Below are positions 7,263-32,933 of a stretch of DNA of 64,000 nt, piece by piece; position 1 is the first letter of the stretch; every line of letters starts with the position of its first letter. A program made the position numbers and the translations under genes. The stretch covers positions 124,001 through 188,000 of the forward strand of contig NZ_JASXSH010000006.1 of NCBI RefSeq assembly GCF_030315745.1, given 5' to 3'. The notes below the pieces were generated by a model. It saw nothing but the letters and a program-made list of their open reading frames with translations, was not told where the DNA came from and ran no database searches. Source of the DNA: Gordonia heveisoli (GTDB lineage: Bacteria > Actinomycetota > Actinomycetes > Mycobacteriales > Mycobacteriaceae).

Positions 7263-7330
7263 CTGCTCTCCCGGGTCGGGGTGCGCCACCGGACATCGGT
7301 GACGAAACCACAAGTACCAGGTGTGCTGGC

Positions 7331-7336
7331 TAGGAT
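7331..7336 (+). promoter_or_regulatory. -10 element for leaderless amidohydrolase mRNA
   Basis: TAGGAT lies six bases before the ATG at 7343 in the short divergent gap with the CoA transferase gene. No ribosome binding site is visible. Confidence 0.45.
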
Positions 7337-7342
7337 GCGGGA

Positions 7343-15013: not shown

Positions 15014-15058
15014 CCGACCAGCGTAAATCGTCGTGTTTCGGCCGATCCAGCCGGTCCC

Positions 15059-15592: not shown

Positions 15593-15681
15593 CGCGGTAC
15601 TCCGGTGTGTCGGGCCCACCCGGATGGGTCGGGCTTTCGCCGCCGACGCTAGGGCCGACCGGCGCCCGGGTCACCGATTGC

Positions 15682-15716
15682 GACCGGCCTCGGCGAAACT
15701 CTCGCCGAGGCCGGTC
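15682..15716 (-). terminator. perfect 15-bp hairpin after the CocE-type hydrolase gene
   Basis: GACCGGCCTCGGCGA and its exact complement are separated by five bases (AACTC). It sits about 40 bases past the stop of the hydrolase gene read on the minus strand. There is no U tract, as is common for actinobacterial terminators. Confidence 0.7.
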
Positions 15717-15757
15717 ATCGGTATCACGAGGCCCTTGCCGCCTCGGTTATCGCTCCG

Positions 15758-17812: not shown

Positions 17813-17845
17813 TTCGAACCCCCCACTGATAAGAACCTGAGAAAC

Positions 17846-17857
17846 TACCGAACGGTA
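17846..17857. promoter_or_regulatory. palindromic operator candidate TACCGAACGGTA
   Basis: A perfect 12-base palindrome 34 bases upstream of the CocE-type hydrolase start, within the divergent gap with the SdpI-like gene. Half-sites of the form ACCG/CGGT are common among TetR-family operators. The cognate regulator is not identifiable from the window. Confidence 0.4.
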
Positions 17858-17960
17858 ACACGAAGGTTGCACAGATCACAGAAGGGTCTCGCAGGTGGTT
17901 CCGGCCACCGCGCAGCGCTGGGTGGTGGACCGCAATTCGGCCAGGTGACGGCGACGGTCG

Positions 17961-17966
17961 TATGGT
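17961..17966 (+). promoter_or_regulatory. -10 element for SdpI-like gene
   Basis: TATGGT lies seven bases before the GTG at 17974, which supports that codon as the leaderless start rather than the in-frame ATG at 17962 that sits inside the hexamer itself. Confidence 0.4.
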
Positions 17967-17973
17967 TGTGACC

Positions 17974-18543
17974 GTGAGTGTGCTGTCCATCGTTATCGCA
18001 TCGCTGCTGATCGTCCTGGCCGTGGTGTGGTCGACGACCGGCATCCTCGGGCTGACCGGCCGCCTGCAACGCAATCGCTGGATCGGTGTGCGCGCCGACG
18101 AGACGATGCGTTCCGCAGCCGGCTTCACCCTGGCCAACCGGGTCGCCGGTCCCGGTCTACTGGGCGCGAGCCTCATCCTGGTCCTCGGCGCGGTGCTCAC
18201 CGTCGCGATCTCCGGCTGGTTTTCACTGCTGTGCGCCGTCGTCGCCCTGACCGCCGCACTGGCCGTCGTCGGTGTGGTGAGCGGACTCGGTGTCCGCGCG
18301 GCCGCCACCATCCCGGCCGAGTCGGCCGACGGGGGCTGCGGGTGCTGTTCCGGCGGTGACGATCACGCGCACGACGCGCCTGCGGCCAGCACTTCTGGGG
18401 GCACCACTTCTGGGGGCACCACTTCTGGGGCCGACGCCGGATGCGCCGCACCGCACGACGACCCCGCGGCCGACTGTGGCACCAGCAGCTGTGGGGCGTG
18501 CTCGCTGCGCGGTATGTGCACCACCGAAACCGCGCAGGCCTGA
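17974..18543 (+). CDS. SdpI-family membrane protein with Cys/His-rich C-terminal tail
   Basis: About 189 residues. The N-terminal two thirds are an SdpI-like domain: a first membrane helix, the conserved GRLQRNRWIGVRADETM loop, then ANRVAGPG and two more hydrophobic helices. The last 60 or so residues are different: GCGCCSGG, DDHAHD, a low-complexity TSGGT repeat, then DCGTSSCGACSLRGMC. Eight cysteines and three histidines suggest metal binding or redox sensing, but no known metal-site pattern is matched. SdpI proteins in Bacillus confer immunity to a peptide toxin; most actinobacterial relatives are uncharacterised. The BASS transporter gene starts 13 bases downstream, so the two probably share an mRNA. 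Confidence 0.75.
   Translation: MSVLSIVIASLLIVLAVVWSTTGILGLTGRLQRNRWIGVRADETMRSAAGFTLANRVAGPGLLGASLILVLGAVLTVAISGWFSLLCAVVALTAALAVVGVVSGLGVRAAATIPAESADGGCGCCSGGDDHAHDAPAASTSGGTTSGGTTSGADAGCAAPHDDPAADCGTSSCGACSLRGMCTTETAQA
18391..18431 (+). repeat. 15-bp in-frame tandem repeat in SdpI-like gene
   Basis: ACTTCTGGGGGCACC occurs twice exactly (18391-18405, 18406-18420) followed by a partial third copy (from 18421). Each unit encodes Thr-Ser-Gly-Gly-Thr. Copy number could vary by slippage without shifting the frame. Confidence 0.9.
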
Positions 18544-18556
18544 GGCCCGCGAGCCG

Positions 18557-19558
18557 GTGCCGATCATCGACTTCTTCCGCAGGCTGCTGCAACGATCCCC
18601 GATCGACGGCTTTGTCCTATCGATCCTGGCCGCCGTCGTCATCGCCGCCTTCCTGCCCGCCGAGGGCGCCACGGCCGACATACTGGACTGGGTCGTCACG
18701 ATCGCGATCGGTGCGCTGTTCTTCCTCTACGGCACCCGCCTGCATCCGCGGGAGGCCCTCGACGGACTCCGACACTGGCGTTTGCACCTGACGATCCTGG
18801 CCTTCACCTTTGTCGCGTTCCCGTTGATCGGCCTGGCACTTCGGCCGATCGCCGAACCACTCGTCGGCGACGATCTGTACGCAGGTCTGCTGTTTCTGTG
18901 TCTGGTTCCGTCGACCGTTCAGTCCTCGATCGCCTTCACCTCGATCGCGCGCGGCAACGTGGCCGGCGCCATCGTCAGCGCGTCGACGTCGAACATCCTC
19001 GGCGTGTTCCTGACGCCGCTGCTGGTGGTCGCGCTGATGAGTACCGCGGGCGACATCCACATCGACGCGTCGTCGGTGTTGAAGATCGTGGCCCAGATCC
19101 TGGTGCCGTTCATCGTCGGCCAGATCGCGCGGCCGTGGGTGGGACCGTTCTTCAGCAGGCACGCCGCGCCCACCAAATACGCCGATCGCAGCGCGATCGT
19201 GCTCGTCGTCTACGTCGCCTTCAGCGAGGGTGTGCGTGAGGGCATCTGGTCGCTGGTGAGTGCCGCCGACGTCATCGCCGTCGCGATCATCTCGCTGCTG
19301 TTGGTGATCGTGATGCTCTTCGTGACCCGCTGGCTACCTCAGCGCCTCGGCTTCGACCGCGCCGACACCATCGCCATCCAGTTCTGTGGCACCAAGAAGA
19401 GCCTGGCAACCGGCCTGCCGATGGCCACCGTGCTGTTCTCCGGATCGGTCGTCGGTCTGATCGTGTTGCCGCTGATGATCTTTCATCAGATCCAGCTGAT
19501 TCTGTGTTCGTGGCTGTCGGCGCGCTACGCCCGCGAGCTCGACGAGTCGACCGACTGA
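18557..19558 (+). CDS. bile acid:sodium symporter family transporter (SBF-like)
   Basis: A 333-residue integral membrane protein with about ten hydrophobic helices. Family traits include the crossing-helix regions VPSTVQSSIAFTSIARGN and QFCGTKKSLATGLPMA, both typical of the SBF_like branch of the BASS superfamily (the YfeH/PF13593 type). Such proteins move organic anions with sodium; substrates in bacteria are mostly unknown. The GTG at 18557 is chosen because the open frame upstream overlaps the SdpI-like gene and has no membrane character. Very short spacing after the SdpI-like gene argues for a shared function, perhaps export or tolerance. Confidence 0.83.
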   Translation: MPIIDFFRRLLQRSPIDGFVLSILAAVVIAAFLPAEGATADILDWVVTIAIGALFFLYGTRLHPREALDGLRHWRLHLTILAFTFVAFPLIGLALRPIAEPLVGDDLYAGLLFLCLVPSTVQSSIAFTSIARGNVAGAIVSASTSNILGVFLTPLLVVALMSTAGDIHIDASSVLKIVAQILVPFIVGQIARPWVGPFFSRHAAPTKYADRSAIVLVVYVAFSEGVREGIWSLVSAADVIAVAIISLLLVIVMLFVTRWLPQRLGFDRADTIAIQFCGTKKSLATGLPMATVLFSGSVVGLIVLPLMIFHQIQLILCSWLSARYARELDESTD

Positions 19559-19630
19559 CATCACGGCCGGTTGTCGGGGCCCGTCACTACAGTGGGCTTG
19601 CACGATGGAAGCAGAGGGGACGAGACGGGT

Positions 19631-22600
19631 ATGGCTTTGTTCCGGCGAGCCGACCGCACGACGCCGACTACCGCCGATCGTGAGTTCATCGCCGCCCTCC
19701 GCCGGTCCATCGCCACCGACCCCGCCATCGCCGACCCGGACGAGCGGCAGGCCATCGCCGATCGGGTGGCCGACCAGTTGCGCACCGGCACCGATCCCGA
19801 AGTCGCGGCCGCGATCGCCCGCGCTCACGGCGGCTGGTGGTCGTCGTCGTACCTGAACGACACCGTCCCCGACCTCCGGCACCGGGCCTATGCACTCCTC
19901 GATCAGGTCACCCCGATCGTCGCCCGACGCTGGGCACAGGTCCTCACCGGCTATCGGGCGTCGCCACCCACGCTGACACCCGTCGCAGGGGACCACGGCG
20001 CCGAACGGTTGATCGACGACATCGCCAAGTGTTTCCGGCATCGGGCCGGATTCGCCTCATCCGGGCCGCTCCCGGTCCACCTGGCCACCCTCGATGCGAT
20101 CGTGGTCGCCGGCGGTGGCCGCCCGGGCGAACTGCTCGAGGCGGTGTTCTCCTACGACACCACATTTCGCTACGCGGGACTGACCGGTATTCGCAACATC
20201 ATTCGCGATCTGCCCGACTTCGAGGTGGCGGTCGCCGCGGACAGCGAGGTCCTCGCCGCGCTGGCGGCCCGACAACCAGCCAAGGCCCGCACGGTACTGC
20301 TGGAGTTGTTCGACGGTCTCGCCGACGCCGCGTTGGCGCCCTTCGCCGACGTCATCACCGCCGCCCTGGTCGGCACGTCGGTGACCACGGCCGTGGCCGC
20401 GGAGAAGTCGGCCACCCGGTGCCCCGCTGATGCGATGATCGAATCCCTCAAACGGGCGGCCAACGAGGGTGACAGCAGTACCCAGATCCGTGCGCTGCGG
20501 GCGATCTGGAAACTCGGCCCCACCCCCGACGACCGACGCTGGGCGATCGACTTCGCCGCCCGCGCCACGTCCGCCGCCGCGAAGGCGCTCGCGCGCGAAT
20601 GGGCCCACCGCGTCACCCAGCTGCCGACCGACGCCGACACTCTCTCGGACACCACGGGTACACGCACTGGCACACCGGCCGAATGGCGCATCGAGATCAC
20701 CCCGAGCCTGCGCGATGCGATAACGCGGTTCGTCCGTGACATCGGCCATCCCGACGCCGACGCCGACCTGGTCCGGGCGCTCACCAGCGGCCGACGACCG
20801 GCCACCGACCGACGCTTCCGCGACCTGTTGCCCTACCAGGCGCAGGACGCGATCGTCCCGGCACTCACCGCATTGTGGCGCTGCCCCGATATGACACCGA
20901 CCGCCACACTCATCACCCTGCAGTTCATGAACCTGCTGCGCATCCCCAGCGGCGCTGCGCTGAGTACCGCTGCGGTGGAGGCGATCGAGGCCGGCCACGC
21001 CGACCGGCCCGGTTTCGACCTTGCCCACCTGCAACTATTGCTCGACACCATGGGTCTGCCCGGTGCCGATCTCCTCGTCGACGCCTACCGCATGTCCTGG
21101 AAACGACTGGGCCACGACTGGCCGGCCGCCGATGTCGCCCCGTTCGCGGCCGCCAACCGTGATCGGTTTGTCGCGGCGCTGGCCGACGATACGTCCTACT
21201 CCGCCGATCCGACCGCACCTTTCCGCGCCTTCGCCACGTTGCCCGCGCTACCCGCCGACCTCACCGACACCCTGTTTCGGATCGCGCTCGGATCGTCGTC
21301 GCGCACCCGTGTCACCGCCCAGGATGTGCTGGTGCCCAACGGCTTCGATGTTCCTGCTGACCGCATCGGCCGCATCCACACCGCGGTCTGTGATCCGGCG
21401 GCCGACACCCGCGCGGTCGCCGCGACGTGGTTGGGCCGGATCGGAGCCGCCGGGGCAGATTCCCCCGACGTCGAGGTCATCGAAAGTGCGTACGCCACCG
21501 AACGTACCGAACGTGTCCTACAAGCTCAGCTGAATGCCCTTGCCGCCCTGGGACGTTCCCCCGACGTGTACCTCAATAGGGTCACTCTGGCGGCGCAGGT
21601 CGCCAAAGCCGCGCGCAAGGGCGGGCCACCTGGCCTGGACTGGCTCGACGTCGGTGCACTGCCGCCCGTACGCTGGGCCGATGATGGCGAACCCGTCCCC
21701 GTCGAGACACTTCGCTGGCTGCTCGGTACCGCGGTCCGACTGAAGGATCCGGAACCCACCGTCGCACTGCGCTACTACTGCGCGCTGTTCGACGCCACCG
21801 ACCGAGCGCGCCTGGGTGACCATCTCCTCGACACCTGGCTGGTCGTCGGAAGTATCAAAACCAAAGGAGTACTGGCGATCTGCGCGTCATGCTGCACGGA
21901 CAACGCGGCCCCGATCGCCGAACACTACATCCGCACCAACTACGGTCTGGCCGCCGCCCAGTGCAAAGCCCTGCTGGCGATGCTGAGCTGGGTGGACGCC
22001 GACAACGCCGTGCAGACCCTGCTGGCGATCTCCACGCGGTTCCGCACGCGCGGTATCCAGGAGGTCGCCGGTATGCAGGTCCGCGCGCTGGCGCAACGGC
22101 GGGGCTGGACTCCCGACCAGCTGGCGGACCGGACCGTGCCCGACGGTGGGTTCTCCACGGGCGGCCGGTTGCTCCTGGACTACGGGCCGCGCGAGTTCAG
22201 CGCGCGCATCGGACCGGGTCTCACCCTCGCGCTGTTCAACCCGGACGGCAAACCGGTCAAGTCGCTGCCCGCACCGCGCGCCACCGACGATCCCGAGGCG
22301 GTGGCCGCGTCGAAGCGGCGGCTCACCGCCGCCCGCAAGGCCGTCAAGACCACCGTGGTCGCACAGCGGGATCGCCTCTACGAGGCGATGTGCACCGAAC
22401 GACGCTGGTCGGTCGTCGAATGGAGCACCTACCTGCGGCCGCATCCGATCGTCGGGCAGTTGGCCGGTCGGCTCATCTGGCTCGCCGTGGCCGGTGATGA
22501 GCACCCGATCGCCTTCCGACCCCTCGACGACGGATCGCTGACCGACGCCGACGACGAGGAGGTGCAGCTCCAGGCGGAGGCCACCATCAGCCTGGTCCAC

Positions 22601-23092
22601 CCCGGCGCGCTGGCCCCGGCCGCGGTGACCGCCTGGCGCACCCACCTCGTCGACTATGAGGTAGATCCGCTGTTCGACCAGCTTGGCGAACCCATCGCCA
22701 TCGATGACGTCTCCGACGCGGCCACCTCCTACGACGGCTATGAGGGCTATCTGCTCGACGCCTTCACGCTGCGTGCCGCGACGACCCGGCGCGGGTATCT
22801 CCGCGGCCCGACCGGCGACGGCGGCATCGTCACCTCCTATGTGAAACGGTTCCCCAGCTCGGGTATCGAGGTGGTACTCGGCTTCTCCGGCATCGCACTC
22901 CCGGAGGAGAACCTGAGCGTCGCCCTGACGCATCTGCACTTCACGGATGTCTCCGACGGCGGCAACGGTCGCTGGATACGCTTCGGCGACGTCCCCGCAG
23001 TGCTGCTGCGCGAGTCGATCGGCGATCTCGCATCGGTCGCGGCGCTGGGGGCCCACGATCCGAACTGGCGCGGAAAGGTGCGCATCACATGA
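19631..23092 (+). CDS. DUF4132 family protein, first gene of MoxR-VWA-SWIM operon
   Basis: A 1153-residue cytoplasmic protein. The long N-terminal part (about residues 1-800) is alpha-helical with repeated Leu/Ala-rich helices that look like HEAT- or ARM-type scaffolding. The DUF4132 signature starts near residue 830: GWTPDQLADRTVPDGGF, LLDYGPREFSARIGPGL, then SLPAPRATDDPEAV, a lysine-rich helix, and RRWSVVEWSTYLRPHPIVGQLAGRLIWLA. A metazoan-like WGR domain, often found with this family, is not evident. The ATG at 19631 has GAGGGGA upstream; a possible -10 (TACAGT) is at 19588. Its stop overlaps the MoxR start (ATGA). E. coli MolR/YehI is a family member as I recall; no biochemical role is established. 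Confidence 0.85.
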   Translation: MALFRRADRTTPTTADREFIAALRRSIATDPAIADPDERQAIADRVADQLRTGTDPEVAAAIARAHGGWWSSSYLNDTVPDLRHRAYALLDQVTPIVARRWAQVLTGYRASPPTLTPVAGDHGAERLIDDIAKCFRHRAGFASSGPLPVHLATLDAIVVAGGGRPGELLEAVFSYDTTFRYAGLTGIRNIIRDLPDFEVAVAADSEVLAALAARQPAKARTVLLELFDGLADAALAPFADVITAALVGTSVTTAVAAEKSATRCPADAMIESLKRAANEGDSSTQIRALRAIWKLGPTPDDRRWAIDFAARATSAAAKALAREWAHRVTQLPTDADTLSDTTGTRTGTPAEWRIEITPSLRDAITRFVRDIGHPDADADLVRALTSGRRPATDRRFRDLLPYQAQDAIVPALTALWRCPDMTPTATLITLQFMNLLRIPSGAALSTAAVEAIEAGHADRPGFDLAHLQLLLDTMGLPGADLLVDAYRMSWKRLGHDWPAADVAPFAAANRDRFVAALADDTSYSADPTAPFRAFATLPALPADLTDTLFRIALGSSSRTRVTAQDVLVPNGFDVPADRIGRIHTAVCDPAADTRAVAATWLGRIGAAGADSPDVEVIESAYATERTERVLQAQLNALAALGRSPDVYLNRVTLAAQVAKAARKGGPPGLDWLDVGALPPVRWADDGEPVPVETLRWLLGTAVRLKDPEPTVALRYYCALFDATDRARLGDHLLDTWLVVGSIKTKGVLAICASCCTDNAAPIAEHYIRTNYGLAAAQCKALLAMLSWVDADNAVQTLLAISTRFRTRGIQEVAGMQVRALAQRRGWTPDQLADRTVPDGGFSTGGRLLLDYGPREFSARIGPGLTLALFNPDGKPVKSLPAPRATDDPEAVAASKRRLTAARKAVKTTVVAQRDRLYEAMCTERRWSVVEWSTYLRPHPIVGQLAGRLIWLAVAGDEHPIAFRPLDDGSLTDADDEEVQLQAEATISLVHPGALAPAAVTAWRTHLVDYEVDPLFDQLGEPIAIDDVSDAATSYDGYEGYLLDAFTLRAATTRRGYLRGPTGDGGIVTSYVKRFPSSGIEVVLGFSGIALPEENLSVALTHLHFTDVSDGGNGRWIRFGDVPAVLLRESIGDLASVAALGAHDPNWRGKVRIT

Positions 23093-24204
23093 GCAGTACC
23101 GAGGTTCCCGGACCCGCCGGACCGGTTCTCCGCGCCCCCGCCGAGCAGGTATACGCCACGGAACTGGCCGCCCTCGCGGCCGCGGATGCCGGCGCTCGGC
23201 CACCGGGATGGCGGTTGTCCCCGCGGGCGGTCCGCAGCTTCGTCGTCGGCGACCGCAGCGCTGGAGTGGTACCGAAGTTCTACGGCGACAACGCCCTCGT
23301 GGAGCGCTGCATCGTCACCCTGATGAGCAATCGCGGATTGCTGCTCGCCGGTGAACCGGGGACGGCCAAATCGATGTTGTCGGAACTTCTCTCGGCCGCC
23401 ATCTCCGGTACGTCTGGACAGGTGGTGCAGGGCAGTACCGGCACCACCGAGGACAAGATCGCGTATTCGTGGAATTACGCGCTGCTCCTGGCCGAGGGTC
23501 CGTCGCAGCGGGCGCTCGTCCGCGGTCCGCTGTACACCGCGATGGAAACCGGCACCCTGTGCCGTTTCGAGGAGATCACCCGGGTCCAGCCGGAGATCTC
23601 CGACGCACTGATCGGGGTGCTCTCCGACAAGGCCCTACATATCCCGGAACTCCCCGACGATGATGCGATTCTGTTCGCCCGCAACGGTTTCAACGTCATC
23701 GCCACCGCCAACCTGCGCGACCGCGGGGTACATGAGATGTCCTCGGCGCTCAAGCGTCGCTTCAACTTCGAGACGGTGACCCCGATCCGTGATCGCGCGC
23801 TCCAGGCCGAGCTGATCACCGGCCAGACCGCGGCCCTCCTCACCGAAGCCGGGGTGGGTACGCGTCTCGGCGAGGATGTGGTCGCGCTGCTGATCGACGT
23901 CTTCGACGATCTGCGTACCGGCGTCACCGCCGATGGGGTCGCGGTGGAGAGGCCGGCCGCGGTGATGTCGGCGGCCGAGGCGGTCGCGGTCGGCTATGCC
24001 GCCGCCCTCGACGCCCACTATTTCGGTGACGGCGCGGTGGACGGCAATCATGTCGCACGGCAGCTGATCGGCACCGTCCTCAAGGACAACCCCGACGACG
24101 CCACAAAGCTCGACCAGTATTTCGACGTCGTCGTCCGTCGTCGGGCGAAACGTGGCAACGCCTGGTCGGCTGCGCTGGCCGCCCACCGCGAACACACCGC
24201 CTGA
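23089..24204 (+). CDS. MoxR-type AAA+ ATPase
   Basis: A 371-residue AAA+ ATPase. Walker A is GEPGTAKS at residues 88-95. The Walker B position reads CRFEEITR near 158, the sensor 1 asparagine is in VIATANLRDRG near 205, and the arginine-finger region is SSALKRRFNFETV. The order and spacing match MoxR/RavA-type ATPases, which act as chaperone-like remodellers together with VWA proteins. Residues 60-80 form a substrate/lid region before the ATP site. The start overlaps the DUF4132 stop; the DUF5682 gene starts four bases after its stop. In this operon it is the obvious energy source, with the VWA protein as likely partner. Confidence 0.92.
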   Translation: MSSTEVPGPAGPVLRAPAEQVYATELAALAAADAGARPPGWRLSPRAVRSFVVGDRSAGVVPKFYGDNALVERCIVTLMSNRGLLLAGEPGTAKSMLSELLSAAISGTSGQVVQGSTGTTEDKIAYSWNYALLLAEGPSQRALVRGPLYTAMETGTLCRFEEITRVQPEISDALIGVLSDKALHIPELPDDDAILFARNGFNVIATANLRDRGVHEMSSALKRRFNFETVTPIRDRALQAELITGQTAALLTEAGVGTRLGEDVVALLIDVFDDLRTGVTADGVAVERPAAVMSAAEAVAVGYAAALDAHYFGDGAVDGNHVARQLIGTVLKDNPDDATKLDQYFDVVVRRRAKRGNAWSAALAAHREHTA

Positions 24205-24208
24205 ACCG

Positions 24209-26647
24209 ATGTCTGCGCTGATCGATGCGTCCGCGGCGCGGGCAACGGCTGCCGGGCTGGTCACCGATGATCTCGTCATCGTGCCGGTCCGGCACCATTC
24301 ACCGGCGTGTGCGTTGCAGGTGCGTCGTGCCCTGGATCTCCACCGCCCGGCCGTCGTGCTGGTGGAGGGACCGCGATCGTTCACCCCGCTGATCGCCGAT
24401 TTGGTCGACCCCCGCGCGCAAGCACCGCTGGCCGTCTACGCCTACACCGATCCGGCCCGCCGCGGGCCCGACACCCCACGCCGGGGCGCCTACTATCCGT
24501 TCTGCGACTTCTCCCCCGAACTGGTCGCGCTGCGCACGGCCGCCGCACGCGACATCCCGGCCCGCTTCATCGATCTCGACTTCGGCGAGCAGTTGCGGGT
24601 CGAACACATCGGTGCGGATGCGCCGGCTCCGTCGCTCATCGACGAACACCATCTGGCGATGAGCCACCGCTTGTCGGCCCTGGCACAGCGACTCGGCTGC
24701 CGAGACCACGATGACCTGTGGGAGCACCTCTTCGAGGCCGATGCCGATGCCGTCGATCTCGCCGAACACCTGGCCCGCATGAGTGCGTACTGCCTGCTGG
24801 CCCGGGCCGATGCAGAGGCGACACCGGGATTGCTCGATCGCGACGGCACCACCGCGCGCGAGGCGGAGATGGCCTGGCACGTCGGTCAGGCGATCGCCGA
24901 ACCCGGACGCGACGGCCCGGTCCTGGTCGTGGTCGGCGGCTTCCATGCGGTCGTGCTGGCCGACCTCGTCGCCGCGGGCGTGCCCCGACCTCGGGTACCC
25001 GCGACCGCCGAACGGTGCGCGGTCATCCGTTTCGCCTTCGACCGGGTGGAGAAGGTCAGCGGCTACGCCGCCGGAATACCGTCGCCCGCCTGGCAGCAAC
25101 GCATCCACGACGGTCTTGCCGGGCCGGCACAGCCGTCCGGGAGCACCGACCATCCGCCGCGCGTCGCAGCCACTCTGGAGATGCTGCTCGACATCGCCGC
25201 CGACCTCGAGGTGCTCGGCCGTCCGGTCGGTCAGCCCACCCTCGCCGACGCCTTCGCGCACACCCTCGCCCTCGCTGACCTCCGTGGGCATGCCGCGCCG
25301 CTGCGCACAGATCTGCTCGACGGGATCACCGCAACCTTCATCAAGGGGGACGCCGACCTGGAGGGCACCGCGATCCTCGCCGCCGCGCACCGCGTGCTCA
25401 CCGGCACCCGGATCGGCGTGTTACCGCCGACGGTCACCGCGCCGCCGCTGGTGGCCGACACCCTCGATCGGCTGCGCCGGGCCCGACTCGCCGTCGACAC
25501 CCCGATCCCCGCCCAGGTCACACTGTCGATCTACCGGTCGGCCGGTCATCGTCGGACGAGCCGATTACTGCACGGCCTGTGCGCTCTGGACATCCCGTTC
25601 GCCACACCGGTCGCCGGTCCCGATTTCGTCGGTGGCACCGATCTGCATCTGATCGGCGAGCGGTGGGATTACCGCTGGTCCCCAACCACCGAGTCGGCGC
25701 TCGTGGAGGCCGCCCGCTACGGAGACACTCTGCCCGACGCCGTCGCCGCCCGCTTCGACGAACTGCTGTCGGGGTTCAGCGTCGCGGGCGGCGCACACGA
25801 CGCGACGATCGCGACCAGCCTGCTGATGCAGGCCTGTCGGCTGGGTTTACACGCCCACGCACACCGATGCCTGACCGTGGTGGCGCAGGTACTCGCGCGC
25901 GATGCGTCCTTCATCGGCGTTGTCCGCGCATGCGGCACCCTCGAACTCCTCGTCCATGCCCGCGAACCACTGGAGGCCGGCGGTCTCGACGGTCTGGGGA
26001 CACTGCTGCGCACCGCCGTCGAACGAGCCATCTACCTGGGTCGGACGCTGCCCGGCGAACCGCCGGACGAGGTCGTCTCAGCGCTCAGCACGCTCGCCGA
26101 GGTGGTCGCCGACCCCGCGCTGATCGACGATCCGGTCGACGTCGACGGTTTCTGGGATCTGGTGACGACGCTGCGCACCGATCATCCCGACGCACAGATC
26201 CGCGGGGCGGCCACCGGGCTGGACTACTCGTCGGGTCGCCTGGACGCCGCCCGGACCGCGGCCGCGGTCACCGGTGCGCTCAGCGGCACCGTCGAACCCG
26301 GTGCCGCGGTGGACTTCCTGCGCGGCGTGTTGCGAACTGCTCGTGAGATCGCCTGGCAGATCGATGATCTCGTCGATGCGATCGGTGATCTGCTGGCCGG
26401 CTGGGCACCGGAGGTGTTTGTCTCCTTCCTGCCCGGTCTGCGACTTGCCTTCGCCGAACTGACCCCGGCCGAGATCGATCGGGTCGCCGCGGTGATCGCC
26501 CGCCGGTTGGGGATCACCGATCCGCTGACATTAGCCCCCGCGGTTCCGCTCGACGCGGCGACGGTGACGGAGAACCTGGCGTGGTCGGCGCGCGCCCACG
26601 CGCTGCTGGTGGCCGACGGACTCGCCGACTGGGTGGTGTCCGGATGA
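24209..26647 (+). CDS. DUF5682 family protein (TraB/EreA-like N-terminal region)
   Basis: An 812-residue protein. Its N-terminus carries the family hallmark VRHHSPACA at residues 26-34, then VVLVEGPRSF near 45, then YYPFCDFSPEL. These histidine and glutamate motifs recall the TIKI/TraB/erythromycin-esterase superfamily, whose members use metal or His/Glu chemistry to cut peptides or esters. A further motif VVGGFHAVVLADL near 235 fits that fold. The remaining 550 residues are mostly helical and unassigned. The ATG at 24209 is four bases after the MoxR stop. The stop overlaps the VWA start (ATGA). In the operon it is the best candidate for an effector enzyme, but activity is not shown. Confidence 0.82.
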   Translation: MSALIDASAARATAAGLVTDDLVIVPVRHHSPACALQVRRALDLHRPAVVLVEGPRSFTPLIADLVDPRAQAPLAVYAYTDPARRGPDTPRRGAYYPFCDFSPELVALRTAAARDIPARFIDLDFGEQLRVEHIGADAPAPSLIDEHHLAMSHRLSALAQRLGCRDHDDLWEHLFEADADAVDLAEHLARMSAYCLLARADAEATPGLLDRDGTTAREAEMAWHVGQAIAEPGRDGPVLVVVGGFHAVVLADLVAAGVPRPRVPATAERCAVIRFAFDRVEKVSGYAAGIPSPAWQQRIHDGLAGPAQPSGSTDHPPRVAATLEMLLDIAADLEVLGRPVGQPTLADAFAHTLALADLRGHAAPLRTDLLDGITATFIKGDADLEGTAILAAAHRVLTGTRIGVLPPTVTAPPLVADTLDRLRRARLAVDTPIPAQVTLSIYRSAGHRRTSRLLHGLCALDIPFATPVAGPDFVGGTDLHLIGERWDYRWSPTTESALVEAARYGDTLPDAVAARFDELLSGFSVAGGAHDATIATSLLMQACRLGLHAHAHRCLTVVAQVLARDASFIGVVRACGTLELLVHAREPLEAGGLDGLGTLLRTAVERAIYLGRTLPGEPPDEVVSALSTLAEVVADPALIDDPVDVDGFWDLVTTLRTDHPDAQIRGAATGLDYSSGRLDAARTAAAVTGALSGTVEPGAAVDFLRGVLRTAREIAWQIDDLVDAIGDLLAGWAPEVFVSFLPGLRLAFAELTPAEIDRVAAVIARRLGITDPLTLAPAVPLDAATVTENLAWSARAHALLVADGLADWVVSG

Positions 26648-27822
26648 CCGAGATCGACCGGTGGCGTCTGGTGCTGGGGCGCTACGCGCAGCCACAACTC
26701 GGTGCACCACAGGAGGGTTCGCCGATCGAACGGCAAGCGCAGGCGCTGGATTTCCTCTACGGACGCGCCTACGCCGGCCGCGGTGTCCTCGATGCCGACG
26801 GCGGCGGACAGCAACCAGGCGGCGGCCCGGGGCCGGGCGGCGGCGACCTCGGGCCTGGCGGCGGTGACCAATCCGATCCACGGGTCACCCACTGGCTCGG
26901 CGAGATTCACGACCTTTTCCCACCCGACGTCTCCGAGGTCATCGTCCATCACGCACTCGAACGGTTCGGGCTGACCGAGGTGATGGCCGATCCGCGAGTC
27001 CTGCGCGACGTCACACCGAGTCCCGAGCTGCTGGCGCTGCTTCTCACCCTGCGACGCACCCTCCCCGCAGCGGTCGACGCCCAACTGCGGCGGATGGTGA
27101 CCGAGGTCGTCGACGAGTTGCGCCGCCGTCTCGAACCCGAGGTGCGGCGGGTGCTGGCCGGCGCCCGGCGCGGATACACCCACTCCCCTCTGCCGGTCGC
27201 GGCGAACTTCGATGTGCAGGGCACCATCCGGCGCAACCTCAAGAATTACGACCCGAACCGGCGTCGGTTGGTGACCACCGACCTGCGGTTCTTCGACCGC
27301 CACGCCCGGCGACTGTCCTGGGACGTGATCATCTGTATCGATCAGAGCGGCAGCATGGCCGAATCGGTCATCCACAGCGCCGTCCTGGCCGCCATCCTCG
27401 CCGGGCTGCCGAATCTGCGGACCGCACTGATCGTCTTCGACACGTCGATCATCGATCTCTCCGCCCACGCCGACGACCCGATCACCGTTCTGATGTCGGT
27501 GCAGCTCGGGGGCGGCACCGATATCGGCCAGGCCGTCCGCTACGCCACCACGCTGGTGGAGAACCCGACGCGGACCATCGTCGTGCTGATCACCGACTTC
27601 TGCGAGGGCGGCCCACCGTCCGAACTGGTGCGCGCGGTCGGCGCCCTCGTCGAAGGCGGGGTGCGGACCCTGGGCCTCGCGTCGCTCGCCGAGCAGTCGC
27701 CCGGCCGACCGGTGCCCCACTATGACCGCGCGATGGCCCAGCGGCTGGCCGACGAGGGGATGGAGATCGCGGCCTGCACGCCCCGACAACTGGCCGACTG
27801 GCTGGTCGAGGCAACCTCATGA
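26644..27822 (+). CDS. VWA domain protein (CoxE-like), MoxR partner
   Basis: A 392-residue protein. A helical N-terminus is followed by a Gly/Pro linker (residues about 53-78, repeated GGG units). A middle helical domain comes next, then a von Willebrand A domain from about residue 220. The metal-ion-dependent adhesion site is complete: DQSGSM near 233, the threonine in GGGTDIGQ, and the aspartate in ITDFCEGG. The region before it (DLRFFDRHARRLSWDV) is characteristic of VWA proteins paired with MoxR ATPases. It overlaps both neighbours by four bases. It probably docks onto the MoxR ATPase and presents or selects a target, as known for RavA-ViaA type pairs. Confidence 0.9.
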   Translation: MTEIDRWRLVLGRYAQPQLGAPQEGSPIERQAQALDFLYGRAYAGRGVLDADGGGQQPGGGPGPGGGDLGPGGGDQSDPRVTHWLGEIHDLFPPDVSEVIVHHALERFGLTEVMADPRVLRDVTPSPELLALLLTLRRTLPAAVDAQLRRMVTEVVDELRRRLEPEVRRVLAGARRGYTHSPLPVAANFDVQGTIRRNLKNYDPNRRRLVTTDLRFFDRHARRLSWDVIICIDQSGSMAESVIHSAVLAAILAGLPNLRTALIVFDTSIIDLSAHADDPITVLMSVQLGGGTDIGQAVRYATTLVENPTRTIVVLITDFCEGGPPSELVRAVGALVEGGVRTLGLASLAEQSPGRPVPHYDRAMAQRLADEGMEIAACTPRQLADWLVEATS

Positions 27823-29573
27823 GCTCCGAGTTCGGTGTGACCGCTCAGGTTGTGGCAACTGTGTACGCGCGGATCACCGACGAGCAGTGGGCCACCCTCG
27901 CCTCACCGGGTCTCCTCCGGCGCGGCCGCAAGGATCTGAGCGCACACACCCCGACCTTGGCTGGCCAGACCGGTGAGTCGGTGCCGATCGATGTCGGCGA
28001 ACATCGAGTCACCTTGGCGGCGAGCGGCCCCGACCGCGCGGCGTGCAGTTGTCCGGCCATCGGGATCTGCCGGCACATCGTGACCGCCGGACTGTGGTTG
28101 GGATCCCTTGGTGAACAGACTGATTCGGGCCCAGTCGGCGCAGCTTCGGACAGCCGGCCGGATCGGGCCGAGGATCTTCCCAGCGCCGGTCCGCCACCGC
28201 AGCGCGGCCCGGGACCCCGGAGCAGCCCGGCGCGCGAACGCCGGAGCGCCGATCACGCTCGACTACGGGCGTCGATCCGCACCCTGCTGTCCGACACCGT
28301 CGCCCTGGGCACCGCACATGTGTCCGACTCGATGACCGCACGCTTCCGGGCGGCGGCGATCTCGGCCCAGACCGCCGACCACTTCCGCCTGGCTGCCCTG
28401 CTCCGGCGGATCGCCGATCACTGCGCGCAGATCGTGGCACGTACCGCCGGGGCCGGGGAAAGCCATGTCGCCGAAGATCTCTCGATCGCACTGGCATTGC
28501 TGACGGCGCTGGCCGCGGCCGGCGAGCCTGCGCCCGAACGACTCCGCGGTGTCGGACGGGGCGCCTACCTGGCGATCGGGGACGTCGACCTCGTCGGTCT
28601 CGGCAGCTACCCGTGGCGCACCGCGTCGGGCTATCAGGGTGTGACCGCCGCCTTCTACGCGCCGGAACATCAGCGGTTCCTCACCGTCAGCGATGCCCGG
28701 CCGCGCCACACACCCGACACCTTCGACGCCGACGCGATCTATCACCGACGATCCCCCGTGTGGCCCGGACTCGTCTCGCTGTCGGCGGCCACCGGCGCCC
28801 ACGTCGCGTTGCACGACGCCCGGGTCAGCGACTCCGGGCGATTGTCGCGCGGCGCCGAGACCACTGCGCTGGTCACCGTCACCGAGATCGGCGCGATGCG
28901 CGCGCAACTCCACCCGATCCGGCGGTGGGCGCACCTGGGCGCCGACACCGGGCGGCCGCTGCTCGATCCGCCCGACCCGAACCAGGCATGGACAGTCATG
29001 GCGCCCAGCGACTTCGGCGAGATGGAATTCGACGAGGTGACGCAGACACTGCACTGGACGCTCGCCGACGACGTCGGGGCAACGCTGGATGCGACGCTTC
29101 CCTACTCGGATGTGACCGCCCATGCCGTCGCGCGGCTGCGCCACCTGCCGGCACCGCGCCCGGGCACCCTCGTCGTCGGGCGACTGACGAACGGCACCGA
29201 TCTGGCGGTGGAACCGATCAGCCTCATCCCGCCGACCGACGCGCCGGACGATGTCGTCGTCGATGCACTGCATTTCGCTCCCGCCGGACCGTCCGCCACC
29301 TCGGACCCACGCCCGGCCGGGACGAGCAGGGCAGCAATCCCCTCCTCCGCAGGCACCGCGCTGGTCGACTCATTGCAAGGACATCTGATCCGTGCCATCG
29401 AACGTGGCACGACGGGCCGCGATGCCGCGGTACGCAGCGAACTGGCACAGCTACTGACCTCGATGCGGGCTGCGGGTCTGACGCTGTTCGCACCACCCGC
29501 CGACGACGTGCCGACACCCGAACTGCTGCTGCGTACCTACGCGGTGACGCTGCAACTGCGCCGCCTGCGCTGA
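27819..29573 (+). CDS. SWIM zinc finger protein
   Basis: A 584-residue protein with a SWIM-type zinc finger, CSCPAIGICRH (CxC...CxH), near residues 76-86, followed by a hydrophobic helix (IVTAGLWLGSLG). A low-complexity Pro/Arg/Ser stretch spans about residues 100-145. The remainder is a helical and beta-rich region without a recognised domain. SWIM fingers bind nucleic acid or protein. The ATG overlaps the VWA stop (ATGA), making this the last gene of the five-gene operon. No terminator hairpin was found in the 35-base gap before the convergent DedA gene. Confidence 0.87.
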   Translation: MSSEFGVTAQVVATVYARITDEQWATLASPGLLRRGRKDLSAHTPTLAGQTGESVPIDVGEHRVTLAASGPDRAACSCPAIGICRHIVTAGLWLGSLGEQTDSGPVGAASDSRPDRAEDLPSAGPPPQRGPGPRSSPARERRSADHARLRASIRTLLSDTVALGTAHVSDSMTARFRAAAISAQTADHFRLAALLRRIADHCAQIVARTAGAGESHVAEDLSIALALLTALAAAGEPAPERLRGVGRGAYLAIGDVDLVGLGSYPWRTASGYQGVTAAFYAPEHQRFLTVSDARPRHTPDTFDADAIYHRRSPVWPGLVSLSAATGAHVALHDARVSDSGRLSRGAETTALVTVTEIGAMRAQLHPIRRWAHLGADTGRPLLDPPDPNQAWTVMAPSDFGEMEFDEVTQTLHWTLADDVGATLDATLPYSDVTAHAVARLRHLPAPRPGTLVVGRLTNGTDLAVEPISLIPPTDAPDDVVVDALHFAPAGPSATSDPRPAGTSRAAIPSSAGTALVDSLQGHLIRAIERGTTGRDAAVRSELAQLLTSMRAAGLTLFAPPADDVPTPELLLRTYAVTLQLRRLR

Positions 29574-29608
29574 TTCACCCGTCTCTCGGCACGCCGCACC
29601 GCCGGGAA

Positions 29609-30223
29609 TCAGCAGGTCCGGGCGCGGGTGCGCAGCCAGCGGATTCCGTACCAGCCGAGCGCGCCCAACGCGGCCGCCACCCCGGTGTAGAACAGGATCG
29701 TCGTACCGAGCGCGGCACCGGCGAAGTAGCCGAGTAACACCACCGCCGACGCCCAACTCGCGGTGCCGACCACATCGGCCGCGGCGAACCGCCTGCGGTG
29801 CATACCGGTCATCCCCGCCACCGGCGGCACCACGGTGCGCACGAAACCGATCCAGCGGCCGGTTGCGACGGCGACGAAACCACCGGAGTCGACGTGGTCG
29901 CGGGCTCGTTGCCAGCGATGCTCGCCGATTCGGCGCCCGAAACCCGACGCCATCACGCGCGGTCCCGACCGTCGGCCGATCTCATATCCGGTGAGGTCAC
30001 CGGCGATCGCGGCGATGATGGCCGCCGGGAGTAGACCACCGACATCGGTCGGGCCGACCGCCGCGGCGACACCTGCGGCCACCAGGACCGCCTCGCTGGG
30101 CATGATCAGTCCGACGACCAGCGTCGCGGTCTCCACGTAGACGACGCCGCAGGCCACCAGATAGACCGCCCACGATGGAACCGAGGCGATGAGGTCGACC
30201 AGCCGGTCGGCAAGCGTATGCAC
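29609..30223 (-). CDS. DedA family membrane protein
   Basis: A 204-residue VTT/DedA-type integral membrane protein. The first helix region reads VYVETATLVVGLIMPSEAVL, with the family glutamate, and the second key loop is ATGRWIGFVRTVVPPVAGM, with the conserved arginine pair. DedA proteins act in lipid carrier recycling and membrane homeostasis. GTG is the start. The YqgE gene lies 21 bases upstream on the same strand, so they may be co-transcribed. Confidence 0.9.
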   Translation of the reverse strand: MHTLADRLVDLIASVPSWAVYLVACGVVYVETATLVVGLIMPSEAVLVAAGVAAAVGPTDVGGLLPAAIIAAIAGDLTGYEIGRRSGPRVMASGFGRRIGEHRWQRARDHVDSGGFVAVATGRWIGFVRTVVPPVAGMTGMHRRRFAAADVVGTASWASAVVLLGYFAGAALGTTILFYTGVAAALGALGWYGIRWLRTRARTC

Positions 30224-30244
30224 GTATCTCGCAGATCTGGGCGG

Positions 30245-30925
30245 TCAGTTCACCGAGACGTCGATCGGGTGGGTGGCGAGCAGCGGTATCGGCCACGGCT
30301 GGCGCCGCACGATGTCCGACCACACGTCGATCGTCGGCGGTGCCAGCACATCGCGCGGCAACGCCGAGGCCAGCATCCAGCTGCCCTGGTCGATCTCGTC
30401 GTCGAGCTGCCCGATACCCCAGCCGGCATAGCCGGCGAAGATGCGCACGCCGTCGAGAACGTCGGCGAAATCCTCGGGATCGGCATCGAGATCGACGAGG
30501 ACGACCCGTCCGTCGATCGGCCGGAGCGCGCTGAAGCCACTGATGTCGGCCCCCGGCTTCACCACCCCCAGACACAGCGCGGCATCCTGCTTCACGGGAC
30601 CGCCGACGAACAACGCGCGTGGCGACGCCGCCAGATCGGTCCACTGCGGCAGCAGATTGTGCACCGCGGTCTGACTCATCCGGTTCAGGACGACTCCGAG
30701 ACTGCCCGCGTCATTGTGCTCGATGACATAAATGATCGACCGCGCAAAATTCGGGTCGAGTAGATCGGTGGCGGAGATCAGCGCGGTGCCTGCACGAACC
30801 CGTCGTGCCGAATCCTCCTGCCAGGCAGCGCCGGACGTGCGTCCACCACCACCGGTCCCCGCCGGATGTCCATCGTCGGCGCGGGAGTCGGGGGTCGGAT
30901 CGTCTGCGTCTTCTGCTCCGGCCAC
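30245..30925 (-). CDS. YqgE/AlgH family protein
   Basis: About 226 residues. The YqgE fold starts at RVRAGTALISATDLLDPNF, with the signature HNDAGSLGVVLNR and later FVGGPVKQDAALCL. The C-terminal GWGIGQLDDEI is also typical. Function is unknown although AlgH has been linked to alginate gene expression in Pseudomonas. The start is uncertain: GTG at 30925 gives a short acidic, low-complexity tail and avoids overlap with the divergent MFS gene; the frame is open to 31132. The arrangement of this gene next to a divergent MFS gene is the same as Rv0038/Rv0037c in M. tuberculosis. Confidence 0.85.
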   Translation of the reverse strand: MAGAEDADDPTPDSRADDGHPAGTGGGGRTSGAAWQEDSARRVRAGTALISATDLLDPNFARSIIYVIEHNDAGSLGVVLNRMSQTAVHNLLPQWTDLAASPRALFVGGPVKQDAALCLGVVKPGADISGFSALRPIDGRVVLVDLDADPEDFADVLDGVRIFAGYAGWGIGQLDDEIDQGSWMLASALPRDVLAPPTIDVWSDIVRRQPWPIPLLATHPIDVSVN

Positions 30926-30962
30926 ACCTCCATCATGGCACGCCGCCCGAGCCGGATGTCGG

Positions 30963-30968
30963 TACTCT
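30963..30968 (+). promoter_or_regulatory. -10 element for leaderless MFS transporter mRNA
   Basis: TACTCT lies six bases before the GTG at 30975, typical leaderless spacing. It lies in the 49-base gap with the divergent yqgE gene. Confidence 0.45.
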
Positions 30969-30974
30969 GGATCG

Positions 30975-32297
30975 GTGAGCACCACGCCTTCGGGCACGCA
31001 TCTCCACTGGCGTTCCTTCGTCAGCTCAGTCCGGCATTCCCCCGGTCTCGGTCGTCTGCTCGCAGTACGTCTGACCAGCCAGGGCGCCGACGGTATCTTC
31101 CAAGCCGCCCTCGTCGGCGCCGTGCTGTTCAACCCCGAACGGCACGCCGACCCACTCGCCGTCGCCGGTGGCTTCGCGGTGCTGCTGCTGCCCTACTCAC
31201 TGATCGGTCCGTTCGCCGGAGCCCTGCTCGACCACTGGGACCGCCGCAACGTGCTGCTGTACGCCAACCTGCTGCGCGCCGCGATCATCGGCATCGTCGC
31301 CATCTCGGTCGCCGCCGGTTCGCCGGATACGGTCGTGCTGATCAGTGCGCTCGCCGCGACCGGTGCGAGTCGATTCGTCGCGGCCGGCCTGTCCGCCGGA
31401 CTTCCCCATGTCGCGGCGCGCGAGGCAATCGTCGGCATCAACGCCCTGTTCACCACTCTGGGCGGGGCGATGCTCAGCGTCGGGATCGGTGTCACCCTCG
31501 CGCTACGGACCGTCTTCGGCGATGACAACACCGGCAGTGCCCTGACCATGATCGCGGGTATCGTGATCGCGATCGTCGCCGGACTACTCGCGCACGGCTT
31601 CGGACAACTCGAACTCGGACCCGATGAACCCGACGATCCCGGCCGGTCTGCGCTACACGCGGTGTCGGTGGGTCTGCTGCACGGCGCCCGGGCGGTAGTG
31701 CGCTGCCGTCCGGTGGCAGGTGCATTGTCGGCGATCGGTGCACACCGGCTGGTGTTCGGCATGAACACACTGATGATCCTGGTCATGGCCCGGCACAGCG
31801 GCGCGGGCAACAACGGGGTCGACCAGCTCAGCGTCGTCGTCGGCTTCACCGCTGCGGGTGCCCTGATCGCCGCCATCCTGACCCCGATCTCGGTAGACCG
31901 CCTCGGCCGGCGGGCAACCCTGATGGGTGCGCTGATCGTCGGTGCGGCCGCCCAACTGACACTGCTGAGCTTCAACATGGCCGTCATCTGCGCGGCCGCC
32001 CTGGTCCTCGGGCTGATCGGTCAGATGGCCAAACTGTGCGGCGACGTCGCCATGCAACTCGACATCGACGACATGGTCCGCGGCCAGGTGTTCTCGGTGC
32101 AGGATGCCGTGTTCAACATCGCCTACGTCGGCGCGCTGACGATTGCCGCGCTGGCCGTCCCCACCGACGGCCGGGCCACCGGCCTGGTGGTGCTGGGCGT
32201 CGCGCTGTACCTGCTCGGTGTGGTCGTGGTGCGGTTCCTCCACACCACCGGCCCACGGCCGCCCGCCGACCTCCAGCCCACCGTGGAAACCGCCTGA
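30975..32297 (+). CDS. MFS transporter
   Basis: A 440-residue major facilitator with about twelve hydrophobic helices. The helix 2-3 loop reads GALLDHWDRRNVLLYANLLRA, the usual DxxxRR signal. A similar but weaker element (VDRLGRRATLM) follows the central loop at the helix 8-9 position. No substrate signature is visible; the nearest known context match is Rv0037c beside Rv0038 in M. tuberculosis. GTG at 30975 is chosen over 30732 because the upstream part is antisense to yqgE and lacks membrane character. Confidence 0.88.
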   Translation: MSTTPSGTHLHWRSFVSSVRHSPGLGRLLAVRLTSQGADGIFQAALVGAVLFNPERHADPLAVAGGFAVLLLPYSLIGPFAGALLDHWDRRNVLLYANLLRAAIIGIVAISVAAGSPDTVVLISALAATGASRFVAAGLSAGLPHVAAREAIVGINALFTTLGGAMLSVGIGVTLALRTVFGDDNTGSALTMIAGIVIAIVAGLLAHGFGQLELGPDEPDDPGRSALHAVSVGLLHGARAVVRCRPVAGALSAIGAHRLVFGMNTLMILVMARHSGAGNNGVDQLSVVVGFTAAGALIAAILTPISVDRLGRRATLMGALIVGAAAQLTLLSFNMAVICAAALVLGLIGQMAKLCGDVAMQLDIDDMVRGQVFSVQDAVFNIAYVGALTIAALAVPTDGRATGLVVLGVALYLLGVVVVRFLHTTGPRPPADLQPTVETA

Positions 32298-32301
32298 CCC
32301 G

Positions 32302-32841
32302 TCAGAACCTCGGGTCGCCGGGGCGTAGCGCCAGATCGGCTCGGCCGTCACCGTCGGTATCCACGAGCACCTGATCGTGCGCACCGTCGCCGTCGGAGTC
32401 GACGTACAACCGCCCGCCGAGCCGGCCGGTGACCGCCGGACCCACCAGTTCGGCTTCCGGCCGCCCATCACGATCGAGGTCCAGCGGCACACGTGGCGGT
32501 GGCGTCGGATGTGGTGATGTCGGATGTGGTGGCGGAGACGGCCGGGGTAGTCGCTCTGACAGGTCCCCGATCCCGGCGCGCGGCCGGTCCCACAACCCAG
32601 CCCCGGAATCCCCGAAGAAGGCCTCGCAAACACCGTCGTCGTCCAGGTCGAGCGCGCTCATGTCGGCCACCCCGTCAGCATCGATATCGACCATCGCATC
32701 ATCGGCCCGGCCATCCCCGTCGAAGTCCAGCGCGACCGCCTCGCGCACACCGTCACCATCGATATCCAGGTCGGCAGCACTGTGCCACGTCGTCCTCGAC
32801 CCGTCACCCGGGCCGAAGAAGTACTCGATCACCGGATCCAT
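32302..32841 (-). CDS. DxDxDG-repeat protein, probable calcium binder
   Basis: A 179-residue acidic protein without a signal peptide. It is built from about seven short repeats of the form [hydrophobic]-D-x-D-x-D-G-x-x-[D/E], for example DLDIDGDGVRE, LDFDGDGRAD, VDIDADGVAD, LDLDDDGVCE, VDSDGDGAHD and VDTDGDGRAD. A Pro/His/Ser spacer separates the fourth and fifth repeats. Such loops bind calcium in dockerins, thrombospondin type 3 repeats and FG-GAP-like modules. Lack of a secretion signal is odd because calcium-binding repeats usually act outside the cell. It is convergent with the MFS gene, five bases away. I do not recognise a named family. Confidence 0.72.
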   Translation of the reverse strand: MDPVIEYFFGPGDGSRTTWHSAADLDIDGDGVREAVALDFDGDGRADDAMVDIDADGVADMSALDLDDDGVCEAFFGDSGAGLWDRPRAGIGDLSERLPRPSPPPHPTSPHPTPPPRVPLDLDRDGRPEAELVGPAVTGRLGGRLYVDSDGDGAHDQVLVDTDGDGRADLALRPGDPRF

Positions 32842-32933
32842 GTCCTATTCGACGCAGCGCAGCCGTTCCCGGTTCCATCCAGCCGTTCGCCCGATGGTTC
32901 GCCCGCAGTCGGAATCGAGTAGGTTCATGCCCT

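Follow-up and report, generated by a model that had tools for sequence, protein, structure and literature searches.

What do five long genes of Gordonia heveisoli, encoding a DUF4132 protein, a MoxR AAA+ ATPase, a DUF5682 protein, a VWA protein and a SWIM zinc-finger protein, do together, and do their products work as one? The genes lie at 19631-29573 of the 64,000-nucleotide stretch that we analysed (contig NZ_JASXSH010000006.1, positions 124,001 to 188,000; hereafter the window). A first-pass annotation, made from the sequence letters, had proposed a single ATP-driven remodelling machine, conserved across phyla and possibly related to stress or conflict, with DUF5682 as effector. We find that the strictly linked unit is narrower than the five genes and has MoxR and DUF5682 at its centre, and that the N-terminal domain of DUF5682 is TraB-like. 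A reading in which a MoxR-VWA motor acts on DUF5682 as an ATP-driven putative hydrolase of the TraB type is, in our estimate, about evenly balanced between right and wrong.

The window operon and its E. coli counterpart

All five open reading frames (ORFs) are on the + strand. The junction DNA agrees with the coupling described earlier, with ATGA overlaps at the DUF4132/MoxR, DUF5682/VWA and VWA/SWIM junctions and 4 nt separating the MoxR stop (24204) from the DUF5682 ATG (24209). The Pfam query for DUF5682 began at 24206 and thus held one extra codon, the true start being taken from the junction DNA; residue numbers below count codon 24206 as 1, so that numbering from the ATG is one lower. 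A promoter and terminator scan of 19300-30300 and an Rfam scan of 15000-33000 both returned nothing. The features are as follows.

19631..23092, + strand: DUF4132 protein, 1153 amino acids (aa), a HEAT-repeat-like scaffold with a C-terminal DUF4132 domain (Pfam PF13569, 1.3e-39)
23089..24204, + strand: YehL-type MoxR AAA+ ATPase, 371 aa (AAA_5, 4.3e-32; 315 bits to YehL by phmmer)
23350..23373, + strand: Walker A motif GEPGTAKS of MoxR, its columns (nearly) invariant in family alignment A6
24209..26647, + strand: DUF5682 protein, 812 aa, with a TraB-like N-terminal domain and a longer C-terminal part (PF18934, 1.5e-97)
24257..24979, + strand: TraB-like domain of DUF5682, residues 18-258 (by hhalign and column shuffles)
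24290..24304, + strand: RHHSP motif of DUF5682 (first His in 64/64 sequences, second in 62/64)
24365..24367, + strand: conserved Glu of the VLVEGP motif of DUF5682 (64/64)
24935..24946, + strand: GGFH motif of DUF5682 (first Gly and His in 64/64)
26644..27822, + strand: VWA adaptor of the CoxE/YehP type, with a metal ion-dependent adhesion site (MIDAS) (VWA_CoxE, 3.6e-45)
27819..29573, + strand: YehQ-type SWIM zinc-finger protein (SWIM 13.2 bits, under the cut-off; member of family alignment A5)
28044..28076, + strand: SWIM motif CSCPAIGICRH (CxC...CxH retained in 83/86 family members)

The family names given earlier hold, since Pfam clearly returns DUF4132, AAA_5, DUF5682 and VWA_CoxE. The SWIM match is under the curated cut-off (E 0.066, 13.2 against 19.6 bits), and the call of a zinc-finger protein stands despite this because of the conservation of its motif. 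The ATPase has GEPGTAKS, the Walker B EE, ATAN and LKRRF, and thus intact Walker and sensor motifs, as had been said of it, along with the Arg finger; mean column identity in its family alignment is 59%. It is of the YehL type both by its phmmer score and by the family profile, against which no other of the 10 candidates scored in its genome reaches E<=1e-60. Its VWA partner is nearby, encoded two genes downstream, and has DxSGS, GGTD and TD, which make up the complete MIDAS that had been claimed. The description of the DUF4132 protein as a helical scaffold is upheld at the level of the family: the profile built from the family hits alphaRep/HEAT structures at E 1e-28, and Pfam assigns HEAT_2 to 22 and WGR to 12 members of the DUF4132 set, which comprises 42 proteins with YehF among them. 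The window copy has DUF4132 as its only Pfam match, with neither HEAT_2 nor WGR at the Pfam threshold.

The annotation had pointed to the same set in Escherichia coli. In E. coli K-12 the order is yehI-yehK-yehL-yehM-yehP-yehQ, and by phmmer E. coli proteins match the DUF4132, MoxR, DUF5682 and VWA proteins of the window; YehQ has no direct phmmer match to the window SWIM protein and matches some of its relatives weakly. The window operon is the Gordonia version of E. coli yehI-L-M-P-Q, and its ATPase belongs to the YehL subfamily. Of 5426 E. coli genomes, 5301 contain yehL-yehQ (5162 of them over at least 80% of the length), which makes these core genes of the species. Two reports touch on the region: deletion of molR1 together with lepA is described as giving slow growth (PMC4245954), and one ST131 sublineage is reported to carry a resistance transposon in its DUF4132/yeh region (PMC9334617).

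MoxR and DUF5682 stay paired in the sampled genomes

A genome scan, of which the best 80 of 526 loci were kept, placed all five families on one strand at 69 of the 80 loci, in several phyla and in three orders. The window's order, DUF4132-MoxR-DUF5682-VWA-SWIM, was found at 60 of these 69, VWA-SWIM-DUF4132-MoxR-DUF5682 at 7 and MoxR-DUF5682-VWA-SWIM-DUF4132 at 2; a fourth order is present on an Agrobacterium vitis plasmid. That the gene set is retained while its order is shuffled argues for a joint function, and together with the linkage counts below supports the earlier view of a multi-protein machine conserved across phyla. Of the other 11 loci, five (L078, L115, L123, L128 and L131) are truncated where the contig ends, in two (L086 and L089) the cassette reaches the edge of the fetched stretch, and one (L129) has DUF4132 on the opposite strand. 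L110, from a Lachnospiraceae metagenome-assembled genome, is without DUF4132 and has a UvrD-type helicase gene (5535-8888) between MoxR and DUF5682. Other genes interposed in cassettes are one in Ereboglobus (L118:8765-9931), which separates MoxR from DUF5682 and matches DNA gyrase B in part, and genes for a Bax1-I family membrane protein between DUF4132 and MoxR in Acidovorax (L086:4292-5005) and Giesbergeria (L098:7756-8469). We also looked for a conserved sixth gene beside the cassette and rejected the idea, as the flanking-ORF clusters listed were for the most part shared by members of one genus.

Four architectures were drawn from 25 loci chosen over the range of scores. Type C is the architecture of the window, with all five genes in 10 of 10 chosen window-like loci. 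Type A brings together SWIM, DUF5691, MoxR, DUF5682 and VWA, with DUF5691 (so annotated on a Deinococcus plasmid) in place of DUF4132. The SWIM motif is present in 5 of 5 type A loci and DUF5691 in 4 of 5, being not found in L067; in L065 the SWIM-DUF5691 pair is directed away from the other genes. Type B (L068 and L069) consists of a small DUF4132 gene, a protein of ~1600 aa, MoxR, a DUF5682::VWA fusion and SWIM; the ~1600-aa proteins are encoded at L068:1533-6584 (no Pfam match) and L069:11883-16637. At the 8 loci of type D, VWA and MoxR accompany a divergent DUF5682, and neither the SWIM motif nor DUF4132 was found. Homology links the SWIM proteins of type A to those of type C (hhalign probability 92.6%, E 4.5e-7). 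DUF5691 was considered as a homologue of DUF4132 and rejected (hhalign 2.4%, not significant). One HEAT protein within a cassette matches DUF5691 weakly (E 0.001, below the cut-off).

Co-occurrence was counted in 197 sampled genomes of the class, the draws of separate searches being taken as the same since their listed handles agree. These searches scored the first-look candidates of each genome (at most 5 for DUF5682, 10 for MoxR and 6 for SWIM), and matches that fell short of the curated cut-off (three for DUF5682, two for DUF4132) were left out of the counts. DUF5682 exceeds the cut-off in 56 genomes and YehL-type MoxR (E<=1e-60) occurs in 58, with 56 common to both. A YehL-type MoxR lies within 5 kb at all 76 DUF5682 loci. 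Conversely, DUF5682 over the cut-off is present at 76 of 81 YehL-type MoxR loci and the other five adjoin a divergent gene of the DUF5682 family, which brings the count to 81 of 81. DUF4132 is within 12 kb of DUF5682 at 20 of its 47 places and elsewhere at 27. The earlier idea of one co-inherited five-protein machine thus survives for MoxR and DUF5682, which stay paired in this sample, and fails for DUF4132, which is more often found without the others. Since DUF4132 is often alone and DUF5691 takes its place in the sister architecture, MoxR, DUF5682 and VWA form the obligatory core, in most cases together with SWIM, and DUF4132 is exchangeable. Furthermore, DUF5682::VWA fusions occur in two lineages, namely L103 (Nocardioides albus) and type B (L068/L069), which argues for contact between these two proteins.

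The N-terminal domain of DUF5682 is TraB-like

A profile of 64 DUF5682 N-terminal domains, from all four architectures, aligned with three TraB proteins (L193, L201 and L207) over 199 columns (hhalign probability 91.4, E 8.9e-7). None of 100 column shuffles reached the real score of 53.3, the best giving 20.7 and the reversed profile 10.3. The MoxR, VWA, DUF5691 and SWIM profiles gave probabilities of 0.1-0.3, and EreA gave 0.4. The alignment takes in the His, Glu, R-x-x-M and V-x-G-x-x-H motifs. Twelve positions are invariant in 64 of 64 sequences (H30, E54, E105, D123, W172, E177, R200, R218, E219, M222, G244 and H247), and H31 is present in 62; the invariant His, Glu, Asp and Arg positions span all four architectures. 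We conclude that this domain is TraB-like as judged by profile comparison. In Pfam the window protein matches DUF5682 only, with no hit to TraB, and a profile search of the PDB with DUF5682 returned four matches with no credible relative among them (best E 0.015, a designed protein).

The first-pass annotation had called DUF5682 a possible hydrolase like TraB or EreA. The TraB half of this description holds; membership in the EreA family (PF05139) was rejected, as its probabilities over four DUF5682 sets (0.3-1.0) are near those of the controls (0.05-0.7). Tiki proteins are described as metalloproteases (PMC12329661), and for one member of the TraB/Tiki superfamily a set of two His and two Glu residues is reported to be catalytic with no need of metal (PMC6254334). 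In the light of these reports, the TraB similarity makes DUF5682 a likely, if putative, hydrolase, whose chemistry could be metal-using or not.

A proposed ATP-driven machine and its weak points

We propose that MoxR would form an ATPase ring that acts through its VWA partner, as NorQ acts through NorD, where a VWA finger is described as lying in the AAA+ pore with the MIDAS contacting the target (PMC9976466, PMC13036017). DUF5682 would be the dedicated partner or client, its N-terminal domain a putative metallohydrolase or protease of the TraB family. ATP-driven twisting by MoxR-VWA may activate DUF5682, load its metal or pass it a remodelled substrate. The DUF4132 HEAT protein (or DUF5691 in the sister architecture), some copies of which have WGR, and the SWIM protein would serve in target recognition and bring the motor-enzyme core to its targets. 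The window copy is, on this reading, a YehL-class machine acquired horizontally. We count in favour of this mechanism the MoxR-DUF5682 linkage, the one-strand sets, the fusions, the TraB similarity with its invariant residues, the HEAT repeats and the NorQ-NorD analogy; the assembled ring, the hydrolase activity, the order of events, the targets and a stress or DNA-damage setting are predicted parts of it. A MoxR-vWA pair with a metallopeptidase domain is also reported from jumbo phages (PMC7824862). A further-reaching form of the proposal, which we consider unlikely, is that of a new kind of ATP-dependent hydrolytic machine, in which a MoxR ring and a VWA clutch would drive a protease of the TraB/Tiki type, its targets found by exchangeable HEAT/WGR and zinc-finger proteins. 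If true, nearly all E. coli would possess a counterpart of Clp, Lon and FtsH built from unrelated parts.

Several observations weigh against the mechanism. The three TraB sequences were chosen after their motifs had been seen. A wider cleaned set of 19 TraB/GumN proteins (10 of 29 TraB-family proteins having been dropped because they had no GxxH pattern or were otherwise unfit) gave a probability of 81 (E 1.2e-5), its 16 GumN-type members alone gave 12, and the TraB sequences one at a time gave 25, 3 and 74. Single DUF5682 types also scored unevenly against TraB (3 for type A, 7 for D and 73 for C). The weak scores of single sequences and single types indicate that the TraB signal is carried by the joint profile. 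Of the 2His/2Glu set in the literature, two His motifs and one Glu were placed (64/64) and the second Glu has no assigned position. TraB itself is described as incompletely understood in function, and the use of metal varies among members of the superfamily (PMC6254334). Among the loci, L124 has MoxR and DUF5682 without VWA, SWIM or DUF4132, and L121 has no MoxR in the 4.3 kb upstream. Finally, a third apparent DUF5682-VWA fusion (L127) was withdrawn, as part of its DUF5682 is read in a different frame, which stops where VWA starts and makes a frameshift likelier.

The cassette is horizontally mobile

The cassette is bracketed by genes for an SBF-like transporter (18290-19558) and a DedA-family protein (29609-30223). 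The earlier annotation had seen it as an insertion between leuS and yqgE relative to mycobacteria, which is borne out and can be refined to the SBF/DedA site. In 10 fetched Gordonia stretches, 9 of which extend to leuS (L223 ends at a contig end), no cassette protein was found between SBF and YqgE, and in the empty site of L218, 97 nt separate the SBF match from the DedA match that faces it. The surrounding framework is thus present without the cassette in all ten, including G005 and G008, whose cassette sits elsewhere.

Within the genus, a DUF5682 match occurs in 11 of 25 genomes. In a MoxR tree of 82 rows, made after removal of near-duplicate loci, the Gordonia copies cluster with two gammaproteobacterial copies and one other actinobacterial copy (Shimodaira-Hasegawa approximate likelihood-ratio support 99), and type C copies of Actinomycetota fall in at least three places. 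E. coli YehL stands beside a Streptomyces/Lentzea clade (support 93), on a long branch that makes this placement unsure. Relatives were found in 35 plasmid-collection records, several of them chromosome-sized; on plasmid pl1 of Iodobacter (L225) insertion sequences lie on both sides of the five-gene cassette, and a type I restriction-modification system comes after it. Viral contigs held no relative, and phages gave one weak match. The cassette thus moves horizontally, yet its genes are core in E. coli.

Which cellular process does the machine serve?

The process may be DNA-damage tolerance, with WGR/HEAT and SWIM proteins binding DNA lesions and MoxR-VWA-DUF5682 clearing bound proteins. This is a statement on process that is compatible with the mechanism proposed above, so the probabilities of the two overlap; we regard it as doubtful, though foremost among the roles considered. 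In E. coli K-12 a LexA-like box, AACTGGATAAAATTACAGGG (L002:6448-6467), has its end 7 nt ahead of yehF, which is the WGR gene before yehH-yehI, and we take molR to be yehF/yehH. Several papers list molR as LexA-regulated (PMC11039860, PMC3978071, PMC4576408), and Deinococcus genes with DUF4132 or WGR are reported to rise upon DdrO depletion (PMC8533742). The WGR domains in 12 of the 42 DUF4132-set proteins and the UvrD helicase gene inside the L110 cassette point the same way. However, the window DUF4132 is without WGR, and of 92 loci scanned upstream of the cassette genes, 91 (the window among them) have no exact SOS box, which also counts against the proposed mechanism. (The scan used consensus patterns and covered the region upstream of cassette genes, so that yehF lies outside it.) The window has no GAAC-N4-GTTC, and the one single-mismatch site found in 17801-19700 lies at 19676, inside the DUF4132 gene. 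Furthermore, a hairpin and T run that, by eye, resemble a terminator lie between yehK and yehL, and yehL-yehQ may thus escape LexA control. SOS control was rejected as a general feature of the cassette.

It had also been suggested that the set is related to conflict; in such an anti-phage system, MoxR-VWA would regulate DUF5682 as an effector acting on infection. MoxR-vWA modules are described as the core of predicted conflict systems (PMC7159879), and the spread between phyla in the MoxR tree, the patchy presence in the genus and the one plasmid copy between insertion sequences and adjoining a type I restriction system would all fit. But the near-universal presence of yehL-yehQ in E. coli does not, nor does the dearth of relatives in viral contigs and phages, and the DUF5682 core residues are conserved rather than diversifying. 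PADLOC-DB 2.0.0 gave nothing below E 0.03, its only match being REase_II for MoxR (E 0.033), and no more than 2 of 113 flanking ORFs (of 143 listed) share any one defence family; the PADLOC matches there are scattered and their count has no control set. We find a conflict system improbable, and phage defence is not supported; of the earlier stress-or-conflict suggestion, the stress part may hold. A third role, that of a chaperone for metal or cofactor maturation of an enzyme encoded elsewhere (as for NorQD, CoxDE and RavA-ViaA), with DUF5682 as a scaffold, seems distinctly unlikely. VWA_CoxE is the best Pfam match of the VWA protein, and the old molybdate name MolR would fit, MolR having reportedly been named for molybdate use by Lee in 1990. 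MoxR proteins in general are described as aiding the maturation of other complexes (PMC3893208). The constant neighbour, however, is DUF5682 itself. No Pfam family occurs in more than 3 of the 113 flanking ORFs, and the commonest metalloenzyme family, nitrite/sulphite reductase, has 2 (among 25 of 145 families listed). Moreover, molybdenum genes are reported not to have followed in Deinococcus (PMC8533742). The molybdate name is old and finds no support here.

Novelty and comparison with known systems

The available text of the papers that name the YehL subfamily states no role for it (PMC3893208, PMC11432383). In the literature that we covered (titles and the starts of abstracts, with most subscription journals outside), we found no study of the function of the YehL machine; DUF5682 and DUF5691 are not mentioned there, DUF4132 is mentioned in three papers, three papers contain at least two of the yeh/molR names, and 'SWIM zinc finger' and MoxR never appear together. 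As far as that literature goes, the TraB assignment, the strict MoxR-DUF5682 pairing, the fusions and the four architectures are new. The machine is present in nearly every E. coli genome (yehL-yehQ) and in several phyla. The TraB likeness of DUF5682 now points to residues that may form its active site, and the strict pairing to the partner to look for. With these two leads, what one of the two MoxR systems of E. coli does can be tested directly in a laboratory strain.

The E. coli YehL system (yehI-K-L-M-P-Q) has the same five families in the same order as the window. It differs in an additional WGR gene (yehF), a DUF4132 pseudogene (yehH) and yehK, and YehQ has two SWIM motifs where the window protein has one. 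The ternary conflict systems with MoxR and vWA (VMAP, iSTAND, FtsH, beta-propeller) resemble the window in having adjacent MoxR and vWA with a third component. Unlike in these systems, no VMAP, iSTAND, FtsH or beta-propeller Pfam domain is found in the five proteins, and the bpMoxR match in the window reaches 19.1 bits against a cut-off of 27; the main text of PMC7159879 makes no mention of YehL, SWIM, DUF5682, DUF4132 or MolR. NorQ-NorD, CbbQ-CbbO, CoxD-CoxE and RavA-ViaA are, like the window, described as a MoxR ring with a VWA partner that has a MIDAS (PMC9976466), and are assigned to MoxR subfamilies other than YehL (PMC3893208). The TraB/PrgY/Tiki family (PF01963) aligns with the N-terminal domain of DUF5682. 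We know of no DUF5682, DUF4132 or SWIM partner in any of the four MoxR-VWA pairs just named. DUF5682 differs from the TraB family in turn by its long extra C-terminal part and its tie to a MoxR-VWA motor.

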